Shown here: in pieces, positions 52,203-55,738 of the stretch
How positions within the stretch are numbered: the first letter of the stretch is position 1
Layout: each line of letters begins with the position of its first letter
Notes under the pieces: model-generated
Database searches by the model: none
What the model was told of the DNA's origin: nothing
Seen by the model: the letters and a program-made list of their open reading frames with translations, nothing else
Assembly (NCBI RefSeq): GCF_006740685.1
Contig: NZ_CP035425.1
Location: 287,687-351,686, forward strand
DNA length: 64,000 bases
DNA from: Candidatus Nitrosopumilus sp. SW
Lineage (GTDB): Archaea; Thermoproteota; Nitrososphaeria; Nitrososphaerales; Nitrosopumilaceae
Direction: 5' to 3'
Made by a program: the position numbers and the translations under genes

Positions 52203-53056
52203 TGGCAAAAGCAAAGGCTACCGTTCATGGAGCAGTTTCAATAGTAAATGCGATTGCAAACCAAAAAGGAGCAACATTAGGAATAGATCTAAAGGTTGAA
52301 GCAATTGTTGAAACATCTCCTGGAAAAGGCATAATCATTCAATCAGAAAATAAAACTCTTAGTTCGCGCCTAATTAACAAGACAGTTGAAAAAATTGTTT
52401 CAAAAAAAGATCTTGATGAAAACAAGATTACAATTACATTAGAATCAGAAATTCCTACAGGATACGGATTGAAAAGTTCTAGTGCAATATCATCAGCAGT
52501 TGCACTAGGATGTGCAAAAATTTTCAAATCAAAATTTACTGATCAACAAATTTTACTTGCAGGTGTTGAGGCATCAATTGAATCAAAAGTAAGCATCACA
52601 GGGGCGTATGACGATGCATGTTCATGTTACTACGGAGGGTTTAACGTTACAGATAATGCAAAGAAGAAAAGAATGAGTTTTGAAAAAGGGCCATCGAATT
52701 TAATTGCAGTAATTTTTATTCCAAAAAACAGAAAACGAGGAAATCTAAAAAAACTCAAAGTACTATCGTCAGTTTTTGATCATGCTTGGAATTTAGCAAA
52801 AAAATCTAACTATTGGGAAGCGATGATAATTAACGGATTAGCTACAGCATCAATTCTCAGTTCAAGTCCAGAAATAATTACAGGATTAATTGAAAAAGGA
52901 GCTTTAGGAGCATCGGTTTCAGGAAATGGTCCAGCAATTGCAGCAATTACAAAAAAAGAAAATGAATCTAACATCAAAAAAGTATTTTCAACATTAGAGG
53001 GAAACATCATAGTTTCAAAAATCAGTAACAAAAAGGCTGAAGTTCATGAAGTGTAA
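52202..53056 (+). CDS. aroK: Shikimate kinase, archaeal GHMP type
   Basis: The 284-residue kinase belongs to the GHMP superfamily and not to the bacterial P-loop AroK family. Its ATP-binding motif is PTGYGLKSSSAISSAVAL, with KATVHGAVSIVNAIANQKGA at the N terminus and GALGASVSGNGPAIAAI near the end. It phosphorylates the 3-hydroxyl of shikimate. The start ATG at 52202 shares one base with the aroE stop; the frame includes a TTG just upstream. Confidence 0.94.
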   Translation: MAKAKATVHGAVSIVNAIANQKGATLGIDLKVEAIVETSPGKGIIIQSENKTLSSRLINKTVEKIVSKKDLDENKITITLESEIPTGYGLKSSSAISSAVALGCAKIFKSKFTDQQILLAGVEASIESKVSITGAYDDACSCYYGGFNVTDNAKKKRMSFEKGPSNLIAVIFIPKNRKRGNLKKLKVLSSVFDHAWNLAKKSNYWEAMIINGLATASILSSSPEIITGLIEKGALGASVSGNGPAIAAITKKENESNIKKVFSTLEGNIIVSKISNKKAEVHEV

Positions 53057-54314
53057 AATAGAAAAATCTACAATTTCAGGACAAATAGTTTGTCCCCCAA
53101 ACAAAAGCTATACACATAGAGCAATATTTCTTGCATCACTTGCAGGAGATAATAGTAAGGTGGAAAACGTATTGTTATCAGCAGACACTCTTGCAACAAT
53201 TGAAGCATGTAAGAAATTTGGTGCAGTTATAGAGATAGAGAATTCATCAATAATTGTCAAAAATCCCATAAATTTTGATAAAATCGTGCCTGAAATCAAT
53301 ACCGAGAATTCAGGAACAACAATTAGAATTGCCTCAGGAATTGCAGGTTTATTTTCTGAAGAGATTACTTTGACAGGGGATGAGAGTTTACAAAAAAGAC
53401 CCATGCAGCCCCTATTAGATGCATTATCAAGCATAGGAGCACAATGTCAATCAACAAATGGTAAACCACCAATCAAAATCAAGGGGAAGATTTCAGGAGG
53501 AGATGTAACAATTCCAGGGAATTTCTCCAGTCAGTTTATTTCTGCATTATTAATTACTGCACCACTGACTGAAAAAGGAATCAATCTTTCGATAAAAGAT
53601 AATCTAGTATCAAAACCATATCTGGATGCAACAATTGCAACAATGAGAAAATTTGGAGTTAGCGTACAAACACTAATCCCATACAAAAGATACAATATTT
53701 CACCACAGATTTACAATCCAACAACTTTTACAGTTCCAATTGATTTTTCTAGTCTTGCATTATTATTATCTGCAGCAGTTCTTAACGGAGATGAAACAAC
53801 AATCAAAGGAAATATTGGGAATTTACCTCAAGGAGACGAGGTCTTTATCGACATACTAGAGCAGTTAGGAGTTACAGTAAGTATTGATGAAGATGAAATT
53901 AAAATTAAATCACCTGAAACACTAAAGGGAGGAAGATTCGATTTGAGTAACTCTCCAGATCTTTTGCCACCATTGGCAATACTTGCATTAAATTCAGAGA
54001 GTCCAATTGAAATTGTCAATGTAAAACATGCAAGATTAAAAGAAACAGATAGAATTGCAATAACATCAAGAGAATTAGTGAAACTTGGAATTAAAGTTCA
54101 GGAGAAAGAAGATGGTTTAGTTTTAGAATCAACTGGAAATCCTAATGGTGCAGAATTAAATTCCGAGAATGATCACAGACTTTTCATGGCATTTTGTATT
54201 GCAGGAATGTATGTTGGAGACTGTATTGTAACAGATCCAGAATCAGTTCAAGTTTCGTATCCAAACTTCATCGAAGAGATGAACAAAATTGGAGCAAAAA
54301 TTCAATCAGAATAA
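53046..54314 (+). CDS. aroA: EPSP synthase (AroA)
   Basis: The 422-residue enzyme condenses shikimate-3-phosphate with PEP. Family blocks are CPPNKSYTHRAIFLASLA at the start, ENSGTTIRIASGIAGLF, GDESLQKRPMQPLLDAL, SSQFISALLITAPL, KETDRIAITSRELVKLG and NDHRLFMAFCIAG at the end. Length and order are normal. Its first 11 bp overlap the shikimate kinase end. The 326-bp gap after it holds a candidate RNA. Confidence 0.96.
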   Translation: MKCKIEKSTISGQIVCPPNKSYTHRAIFLASLAGDNSKVENVLLSADTLATIEACKKFGAVIEIENSSIIVKNPINFDKIVPEINTENSGTTIRIASGIAGLFSEEITLTGDESLQKRPMQPLLDALSSIGAQCQSTNGKPPIKIKGKISGGDVTIPGNFSSQFISALLITAPLTEKGINLSIKDNLVSKPYLDATIATMRKFGVSVQTLIPYKRYNISPQIYNPTTFTVPIDFSSLALLLSAAVLNGDETTIKGNIGNLPQGDEVFIDILEQLGVTVSIDEDEIKIKSPETLKGGRFDLSNSPDLLPPLAILALNSESPIEIVNVKHARLKETDRIAITSRELVKLGIKVQEKEDGLVLESTGNPNGAELNSENDHRLFMAFCIAGMYVGDCIVTDPESVQVSYPNFIEEMNKIGAKIQSE

Positions 54315-54347
54315 GTTTTCAAAAAAAATCAACTAAAAGGGATAAAG

Positions 54348-54431
54348 GCGCGACCTTGTATAGGGTGAAAAGCATTCTCCACACCCTCAACGCTTTTGCG
54401 TAGATAACATGTATTTTTCGCAAGGCCGCGC
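54348..54431. ncRNA. Candidate structured non-coding RNA between aroA and aroC
   Basis: An 11-bp closing stem pairs GCGCGACCTTG (54348-54358) with CAAGGCCGCGC (54421-54431), with one A-C mismatch. Inside, AGGGTG (54362-54367) pairs perfectly with CACCCT (54382-54387), and ACGC-TTTT-GCGT (54390-54401) forms a third hairpin, giving a three-way junction. AAAAGC (54368-54373) could instead pair with GCTTTT (54392-54397). A T-rich GTTTTTCC about 25 bp downstream on the plus strand could end it. The strand is not certain. It may be a free RNA or a leader of aroC. Confidence 0.5.
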
Positions 54432-54611
54432 AAATTATGCAGTAAAAATTGCACGTTTTTCCATGTATTCTATATGTTATTATTATATTTAAGAATATAT
54501 TAAAATAATTTCATAAAAATAGGCTATATTTTATAAATTATAATCATACCAGAATTAATTGTAAAAAAGAATCCAAAACAGTAGGAATTTTTCTAAAGAA
54601 TCCGAATGAGG

Positions 54612-54640: not shown

Positions 54641-55738
54641 ATGTTGCCGGGAAGTTCTATTGGTCAGCGTCTTGTGTTGACAAGTTTTGGGGAGAGTCAT
54701 GGAAAATCTATTGGAGCCGTTTTAGATGGTTGTCCTGCAGGATTAGAAATTGATGAAAAAGATATTCAAAAAATGTTAGATCAAAGAAAACCAGGGCAAA
54801 ATATAATTTCAACTCAAAGAAAAGAAGGAGACATAGTAGAGATCATCTCAGGAATTTTCAGGGGGTACACAACAGGTGCACCAATAACAATGGTAATTTG
54901 GAACAGTGATCAAAAATCAAAAGATTATGAAAATTTGAAAACAAAACTCAGACCAGGGCATTCGGATTATCCAGCCATGATGAAATACAATCAATATAAT
55001 GATCACAGAGGAGGAGGAAGATTTTCAGGAAGATTAACTGCAACACATGTGATGGGAGGTGCAATTGCAAGGAAACTTCTAAAAGTAACTTTAGGAATTG
55101 AAACAAATTCTTTCACATCACAAATTGGAAAAATAAAGATGGAAAGAGAATTTAATGAAAAAATGATTAATTCAATTTATAAAAACGAAGTAAGATGTCC
55201 TGAAGATAAAACAGCAAAAATAATGAGAGCGAGTATTTTGGATGCAAGAAAGAGAGGAGATTCACTAGGAGGAATAATTGAATCAGTTACGACAAACGTT
55301 CCAGTCGGATTAGGGGAACCAATTTTTAGTTCATTAGAATCAGATTTGAGTAAAGCAATGTTTTCTATTCCATCAGTTAAAGGAGTAGAATTTGGGTCAG
55401 GATTCAAAGGGTCGGAACTTTTCGGTTCTGAAAATAATGACCTGTATACTGTAAAAAGAGGTAAAATTGTAACCAAGACAAATAATTCAGGAGGAATTCT
55501 AGGAGGAATTTCAAATGGTATGCCAATTACAATGAGAATTGCATTCAAACCAGCATCATCAATTTCACAAAAACAAAGTACAGTAGACATCAAGACCAAA
55601 AAAGAGACCACACTCCAAGTGAAGGGAAGACATGACCCATGTGTTGTTCCAAGAGCCCCACCTGTAGTAGATTCTCTTGTAGCATTAACAATTGCAGATC
55701 ATGCACTAATTTCAGGTCAAATCAAGCCTGTTTTGTAA
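54641..55738 (+). CDS. aroC: Chorismate synthase (AroC)
   Basis: The 365-residue flavin-dependent enzyme removes phosphate from EPSP to give chorismate. Seen motifs are TSFGESHGKSIGAVLDGCPAG at the N terminus, RPGHSDYPAMMKY, DHRGGGRFSGRLTATHVM, NSGGILGGISNGMPI and GRHDPCVVPRAPPV near the end. Length is typical. It is followed 4 bp later by the chorismate mutase-aminotransferase fusion. Confidence 0.97.
   Translation: MLPGSSIGQRLVLTSFGESHGKSIGAVLDGCPAGLEIDEKDIQKMLDQRKPGQNIISTQRKEGDIVEIISGIFRGYTTGAPITMVIWNSDQKSKDYENLKTKLRPGHSDYPAMMKYNQYNDHRGGGRFSGRLTATHVMGGAIARKLLKVTLGIETNSFTSQIGKIKMEREFNEKMINSIYKNEVRCPEDKTAKIMRASILDARKRGDSLGGIIESVTTNVPVGLGEPIFSSLESDLSKAMFSIPSVKGVEFGSGFKGSELFGSENNDLYTVKRGKIVTKTNNSGGILGGISNGMPITMRIAFKPASSISQKQSTVDIKTKKETTLQVKGRHDPCVVPRAPPVVDSLVALTIADHALISGQIKPVL

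Follow-up and report, generated by a model that had tools for sequence, protein, structure and literature searches.

Comparative sequence evidence for a family of folded RNAs with a nine-codon mini-ORF in Nitrosopumilaceae

The Nitrosopumilaceae are ammonia oxidisers and count among the most abundant on Earth. Small RNAs that join structure to a short reading frame are represented elsewhere by tmRNA, which combines structured domains with a tag-sized ORF in one stable RNA, and by SgrS/SgrT of enterobacteria, a dual-function small RNA whose peptide is functional and has been conserved. Guide RNAs of the C/D and H/ACA types in archaea are recognised by their box features, which we used as criteria. 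Dual-function small RNAs have been proposed in archaea, and Haloferax volcanii contains sRNAs with ribosome occupancy, most of them without evidence of coding potential (PMC12482152, in part). In bacterial minigenes, which are very short ORFs, translation rather than the product affects the transcript, and ribosomes have been proposed to protect the RNA (PMC8708949, in part). In some archaea many mRNAs are leaderless, and AUG, GUG and UUG are used as start codons (PMC7531240, in part).

Strand and fold of the flagged segment

The window (the whole 64,000-nucleotide stretch of DNA that was analysed) is part of a 1.5-Mb archaeal genome (G000). An 84-nt segment at 54348–54431, between aroA (53046–54314) and aroC (54641–55738), both on the plus strand, had been singled out by a first-pass annotation as a GC-rich candidate RNA with a three-way junction. 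The 11-bp closing stem (with a single mismatch when read on the plus strand) and the two internal hairpins that it described are present. The GC content of the segment is 0.50, compared with 0.339 for the window. Among 84-mers sampled from the window, no more than 0.3% are equally GC-rich. The fold energy of its minus strand was reached by 0 of 1500 random 84-mers from both strands of the window (shuffle z: minus strand −4.35, plus strand −2.28).

A BLASTN search of 95 genomes from the genus returned matches at E ≤1 in 77 of them; in 49 of these, counting the window genome, the match is strong (E <1e-7). In 46 of the 48 homologues extracted, the minus strand folds better than the plus strand. 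Among 43 distinct sequences, standard pairs fill 1099 of 1156 helix cells (95.1%) when read on the minus strand and 931 (80.5%) on the plus strand, and G-U pairs occupy 172 helix cells on the minus strand versus 4 on the plus strand. Because the G-U and pairing counts both favour the minus strand, the mismatch in the closing stem is a G-U pair of a minus-strand RNA; it is an A-C mismatch on the plus strand alone.

Double changes were found in nine pairs among the 43 genus sequences (0/500 shuffles). With 62 sequences from several genera, 19 of 27 pairs carry double changes; the 163 double-change cells compare with 44 in shuffles and at most 32 with partners slid (0/500 shuffles), these pair counts being taken from a model alignment (A4) that is biased towards structure, since MAFFT failed to align P3 of Nitrosotalea correctly with that of the other sequences. 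One sequence cut by a contig end (L049) was left out of the counts, and duplicates had been removed beforehand. P3 shifts in length, from 10 bp elsewhere to 8 bp in Nitrosotalea, and keeps its pairing. The proposal of a structured RNA with a three-way junction is therefore supported, decisively by covariation and also by better-than-chance folding. A proposed pseudoknot (AAAAGC with GCTTTT) was rejected: it has 0 pairs with double changes and does no better than shuffles, and both halves are already taken up by P2 and P3. We also rejected a peptide read by eye from the AUG in the P3 loop of the minus strand, since the 8- versus 10-bp difference in P3 breaks its frame.

The comparison of homologues demonstrates both the strand and the fold, and the identification of the flagged DNA as the gene of a conserved folded RNA on the minus strand is well supported by these alignments. 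The 84 nt are structured as described, but the RNA is longer, with a promoter, a mini-ORF and a weakly supported hairpin (P0) lying beyond them (Table 1). A search of the whole window with Rfam 15 returned two tRNAs only, and the RNA region gave only sub-threshold, chance-like matches at E up to 10, in keeping with the earlier impression that it resembles no recognised RNA.

Table 1. Elements of the predicted RNA gene, in window coordinates
Element	Position	Strand	Support
Promoter: TATA-like TTAAATA and second conserved element (AACATATA) at fixed spacing	54471..54492	-	TTAAATATAATAATAACATATA
Mini-ORF MEKRAIFTA, nine codons plus stop, starting at the predicted transcription start	54435..54464	-	ORF in 82/84 unique homologues
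P0 hairpin: ORF codons 5-7 (54446-54452) with stop region and UUUGC (54430-54436)	54430..54452	-	Modest
P1 5' strand GCGCGGCCTTG, partner 54348-54358	54421..54431	-	7/11 pairs double-changed, 98.5% of cells paired
J1/2, conserved single-stranded stretch CGAAAAAUACAUGUUAU	54404..54420	-	Alignment A1
P2 hairpin CUACGC-AAAA-GCGUUG, variable in sequence	54388..54403	-	6/6 pairs double-changed (62 sequences)
P3 hairpin GGGUGUGGAG-AAUG-CUUUUCACCC, conserved tip	54363..54386	-	6/10 pairs double-changed
P1 3' strand CAAGGTCGCGC	54348..54358	-	Covariation with P1 5' strand
U-rich 3' flank with T8 run, probable termination region (predicted)	54321..54347	-	Sequence

A degenerate form of the promoter, TTAAATATNATNNTNACRTAYA, was matched in 73 of 245 loci, each time, judging by position, at a copy of the minus-strand RNA or of a second RNA described below. 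P0 overlaps the foot of P1; 96.6% of its cells are paired and three of its seven pairs show double changes, which lends it modest support, and the window copy forms six of the seven pairs by eye. The DNA downstream of the homologues is T-rich, as in the window. Part of J1/2 (54404–54413) is complementary at 9 of 10 positions to the RNA's own promoter element (54471–54480); this match is absent in Nitrosotalea by eye and is probably due to chance.

The mini-ORF in window-type RNAs and paralogues

A TTAAATA box lies about 55–60 nt upstream of P1 in every group, too distant, at the usual archaeal promoter-start spacing, for a start at P1. An ORF that begins about 28–29 nt past TTAAATA and stops 0–1 nt ahead of the structured part is present in 82 of 84 unique window-type sequences. 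It has nine codons in 79 of these 82 and eight in the other three; the start codon is ATG in 78 and GTG in 4, and the stop codon is TAA in 46, TGA in 33 and TAG in 3. L015, L087 and L088 have lost the usual start and carry ATG as the following in-frame codon. The ORF is missing from two of the 84 (L048 and L050), in both of which the structure is weakened.

Among unique 30-mers of the Nitrosopumilus type, 50 of 52 ORFs are intact, compared with a mean of 43.0 and a maximum of 48 in 2000 column shuffles; such shuffles ignore relatedness, and this and the other ORF statistics are not true probabilities. Of the same 52 sequences, one has an internal stop in frame 0, as against 45 in frame 1 and 42 in frame 2. 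All 12 Nitrosotalea 30-mers are intact, yet so are all of their shuffles, and they carry no statistical weight. Start, length and stop are conserved while the peptides drift.

The window genome holds three copies of the RNA: that in the window (E 3e-25) and those at C1:804749-804917 (5e-6) and C1:143362-143526 (5e-4). A covariance model (R1) matched 108 of 250 genomes of the family, in 5 of 22 genera, once in each save for two matches in G196. A model of promoter, ORF, P0 and P1 (R3) matched 188 of 400 genomes sampled from the order, in 17 of 66 genera, and all 188 belong to Nitrosopumilaceae (f1). Thirty chosen genomes gave matches in 29, at 54 places in total, nine of them window-type; the other 45, with 10 from the search of 400 genomes, constitute the 55 paralogue places considered here.

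The mini-ORF recurs in 55 of 55 paralogues, with some tolerance in start offset and length. It has exactly nine codons in 51 and starts exactly 29 nt past TTAAATA in 52; one paralogue, L289, has a 12-codon ORF that extends into P1. With the frame fixed, 39 of the 44 unique 30-mers keep an intact ORF; 2000 shuffles gave a mean of 24.4 and at most 31. The paralogues fold into a long two-part closing stem, a variable hairpin and a GAGAGG-AAAU-CUCUC hairpin, and this fold also covaries, ten of the 17 pairs counted having double changes (0/500 shuffles; 44 sequences). The underlying alignment (A6) includes 44 of the 55; L255, L264, L284, L289, L295, L300, L305, L309, L310, L315 and L317 were excluded as near-duplicates or as among the most divergent, and the ORF count retains all 55. 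Searches of eight paralogue loci returned no Rfam family.

Comparison thus reveals both a conserved ORF and paralogues, and from these alignments the window RNA is one branch of a multi-copy family across Nitrosopumilaceae. Members such as L122, L254–L256, L277 and L317 appear by eye to be intermediate between the window-type and paralogue forms. Weak matches to model R2 in G281 and G295 were set aside as lacking promoter and ORF by eye, and G171, which has both, was kept. Pattern matches outside archaea (Flavobacterium, Enterococcus, Arthrobacter and Campylobacteraceae) were rejected for want of a model match. A link to phages or viruses was likewise rejected; there was no phage match, and the single viral pattern match had no model match. 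One contig titled KSB1 bacterium (JAJDAE010000327.1; L191) carries a strong RNA copy (107 bits) with a Nitrosopumilus-like mini-ORF and is probably a mis-binned archaeal contig.

That almost every copy keeps an intact short ORF could point to a gene for a small peptide, with the nonapeptide as product and the RNA fold merely stabilising the message. The 55 paralogues encode 40 different peptides, however, and the second codon position is the most variable in Nitrosopumilus-type ORFs, which makes this reading very improbable. Short ORFs near the start are not rare by themselves, because 11 of 30 sequences of a control, a second family of RNAs that shares the promoter, carry one of 8–10 codons. 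This figure warns against reading much into any single ORF, but not into 82 of 84 and 55 of 55. It nevertheless counts towards the main rival to the model proposed below, a conventional trans-acting structured sRNA in which the mini-ORF is an idle by-product of the start-site AUG and of P0, with no purposeful translation. The lack of peptide conservation and the constraint that P0 places on part of the ORF also fit such an RNA. Harder to reconcile with it are a frame and a nine-codon length retained across unlike sequences, with in-frame replacement of the start and three interchanging stops, and P0 cannot account for the ORF in paralogues whose hairpin sits elsewhere. We consider the idle ORF unlikely, though a serious contender.

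Genomic setting

The RNA is antiparallel to both aroA and aroC in the window. In genomes of the Nitrosopumilus and Nitrosarchaeum types it follows aroA, again antiparallel, usually with aroC on its other side; aroC is absent from the examined flank in several Nitrosopumilus loci (L008, L010, L013). None of the 24 Nitrosotalea-type loci has an aro gene nearby, and most adjoin a Sir2 gene. Among loci with enough flank, the nearest downstream ORF converges on the RNA in 76 of 78 loci of the window type and in 29 of 35 paralogue loci; it lies on the RNA's own strand in 1 of 78 and 5 of 35.

The window-type copy is missing from many Nitrosopumilus genomes and is therefore dispensable. Thirteen genomes of the genus that gave no model match do have aroA, and no credible RNA copy was found beside it. 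Two places after aroA in genomes without a model match (L125 and L126) may by eye be decayed remnants at the expected position. The RNA gene has apparently been lost or has decayed in some lineages. Given the non-aro loci of Nitrosotalea and the genomes with aroA but without the RNA, the gene is independent of aromatic metabolism.

These loci bear on two ways in which the RNA might control a neighbour. The first-pass annotation had pictured a plus-strand RNA, perhaps a riboswitch, and the segment does lie upstream of aroC in the window genome. We rejected this idea, to which we give almost no credence, on the G-U and pairing evidence for the minus strand, the antiparallel orientation and the loci; the supposed tie to aroC and the aromatic block falls with it. 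Alternatively, translation of the mini-ORF could decide termination at P1 and its U-run, and hence readthrough into the next gene (here antisense to aroA), as in a leader-peptide attenuator. The mini-ORF, P0 over the foot of P1 and the U-rich tract after P1 all resemble attenuator parts, but the downstream gene is mostly convergent and varies between genera, and a run of regulatory codons is absent from window-type and paralogue mini-ORFs alike, so that we regard attenuation as improbable. A same-strand gene downstream, such as a riboswitch or attenuator would regulate, is not a feature of the 78 window-type and 35 paralogue loci. With the nearest downstream ORF mostly on the opposite strand, a cis-regulated gene is unlikely and action in trans is simpler.

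Several paralogues (L247, L299 and L308 among them) are directly convergent to an ORF of about 143–146 codons that lies 0–3 nt from the RNA end. In one Nitrosotalea genome the C-terminal part of a TnpB/OrfB-like protein was seen by eye about 2 kb from the RNA (L094, 152-508). A second RNA gene lies outside the window at C1:210131-210270 (+) of G000 (L215/L216). It has the same type of promoter and is structured (fold z −5.25, 0/200 shuffles), contains invariant CAUGUUA and CGUCCU-like segments and has no Rfam match; matches to it occur in 65 of the 95 genus genomes, at up to five places per genome.

A possible role for the ribosome, and comparison with known systems

The model that we tentatively favour is a leaderless, trans-acting RNA in which about one ribosome would occupy the mini-ORF, against the closing helix, and in which the state of translation would control folding or stability. 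From the conserved arrangement we infer a stand-alone minus-strand gene transcribed from a start about 28 nt past TTAAATA, at the A of the AUG, as well as translation of the ORF and a function for the RNA. The leaderless transcript would measure about 125–145 nt and comprise the nine-codon ORF, a few nucleotides, the closed three-way junction and a U-rich tail. Nine codons plus stop span 30 nt, about one ribosome footprint. A ribosome loading at the 5' AUG would thus fit ahead of P1 on initiation, and on terminating at the stop it would reach into the 5' strand of P1, so that ribosome occupancy may control folding or decay of the three-way junction. Since the peptide changes freely between a fixed start and stop and at a fixed length, it would be the act or position of the ribosome that is selected, and not the product. 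The three-way-junction RNA would then act in trans, as the lack of a same-direction gene following it suggests, and may report on or respond to the state of translation.

Weak matches to J1/2 that resembled mRNA start codons were considered as targets and rejected, as the 20 places fall in unrelated genes or intergenic DNA; four of them are in what is apparently one orthologous coding region. No target or partner emerged from these weak J1/2 matches.

The RNA may, more speculatively, represent a new class of ribosome-gated RNA, in which an arbitrary nine-codon frame, about one ribosome long and abutting the closing helix, serves as a sensor or dock. It might sequester, pause or report on ribosomes, as an archaeal counterpart, in role and not in descent, of ribosome-policing RNAs; we think this unlikely. 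A multi-copy family with strong covariation and no Rfam entry in any case raises the question of why exactly nine codons are kept and the peptide is not. If translation of the mini-ORF does gate the RNA, this would be a new means by which archaea couple the state of ribosomes to the function of an RNA, and the idea lends itself to in-vitro tests on leaderless transcripts with purified ribosomes. Our searches of open-licence papers found no description of such an RNA in Nitrosopumilaceae, and we know of no precedent for a fixed-length, peptide-free leaderless ORF joined to a three-way-junction RNA that recurs several times per genome.

Like C/D and H/ACA guide RNAs, the RNA would be a small stable archaeal RNA. 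The C box (RUGAUGA) and D box (CUGA) occur together in 0 of 82 unique members, and an ANA-like triplet near the 3' end of P1 (loose pattern) occurs in only 26 of 82 and is not conserved. With tmRNA it would share a stable RNA with a short ORF and structure, but its predicted start is a leaderless AUG, and ARAGORN finds no tmRNA in the window. Dual-function sRNAs such as SgrS/SgrT likewise carry a short ORF on a small transcript that also functions as RNA; here the ORF is predicted to be leaderless and is fixed in length while its peptide drifts, and a conserved functional peptide was seen neither in the paralogues nor in the window-type members. For the ribosome-associated sRNAs of Haloferax volcanii, the part of the source drawn on here describes no fixed nine-codon ORF (PMC12482152). 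Bacterial minigenes, as presented in part of PMC8708949, sit in gene leaders and act in cis, whereas no gene follows the window RNA. The orphan structured RNA classes obtained from comparative genomics are likewise covarying RNAs to which a function is not assigned; the terms 'Nitrosopumilus', 'thaumarch' and 'crenarch' are absent from the text of that paper (PMC2864571). Parts of this RNA have precedents in dual-function sRNAs, in minigenes and in ribosome-associated sRNAs.
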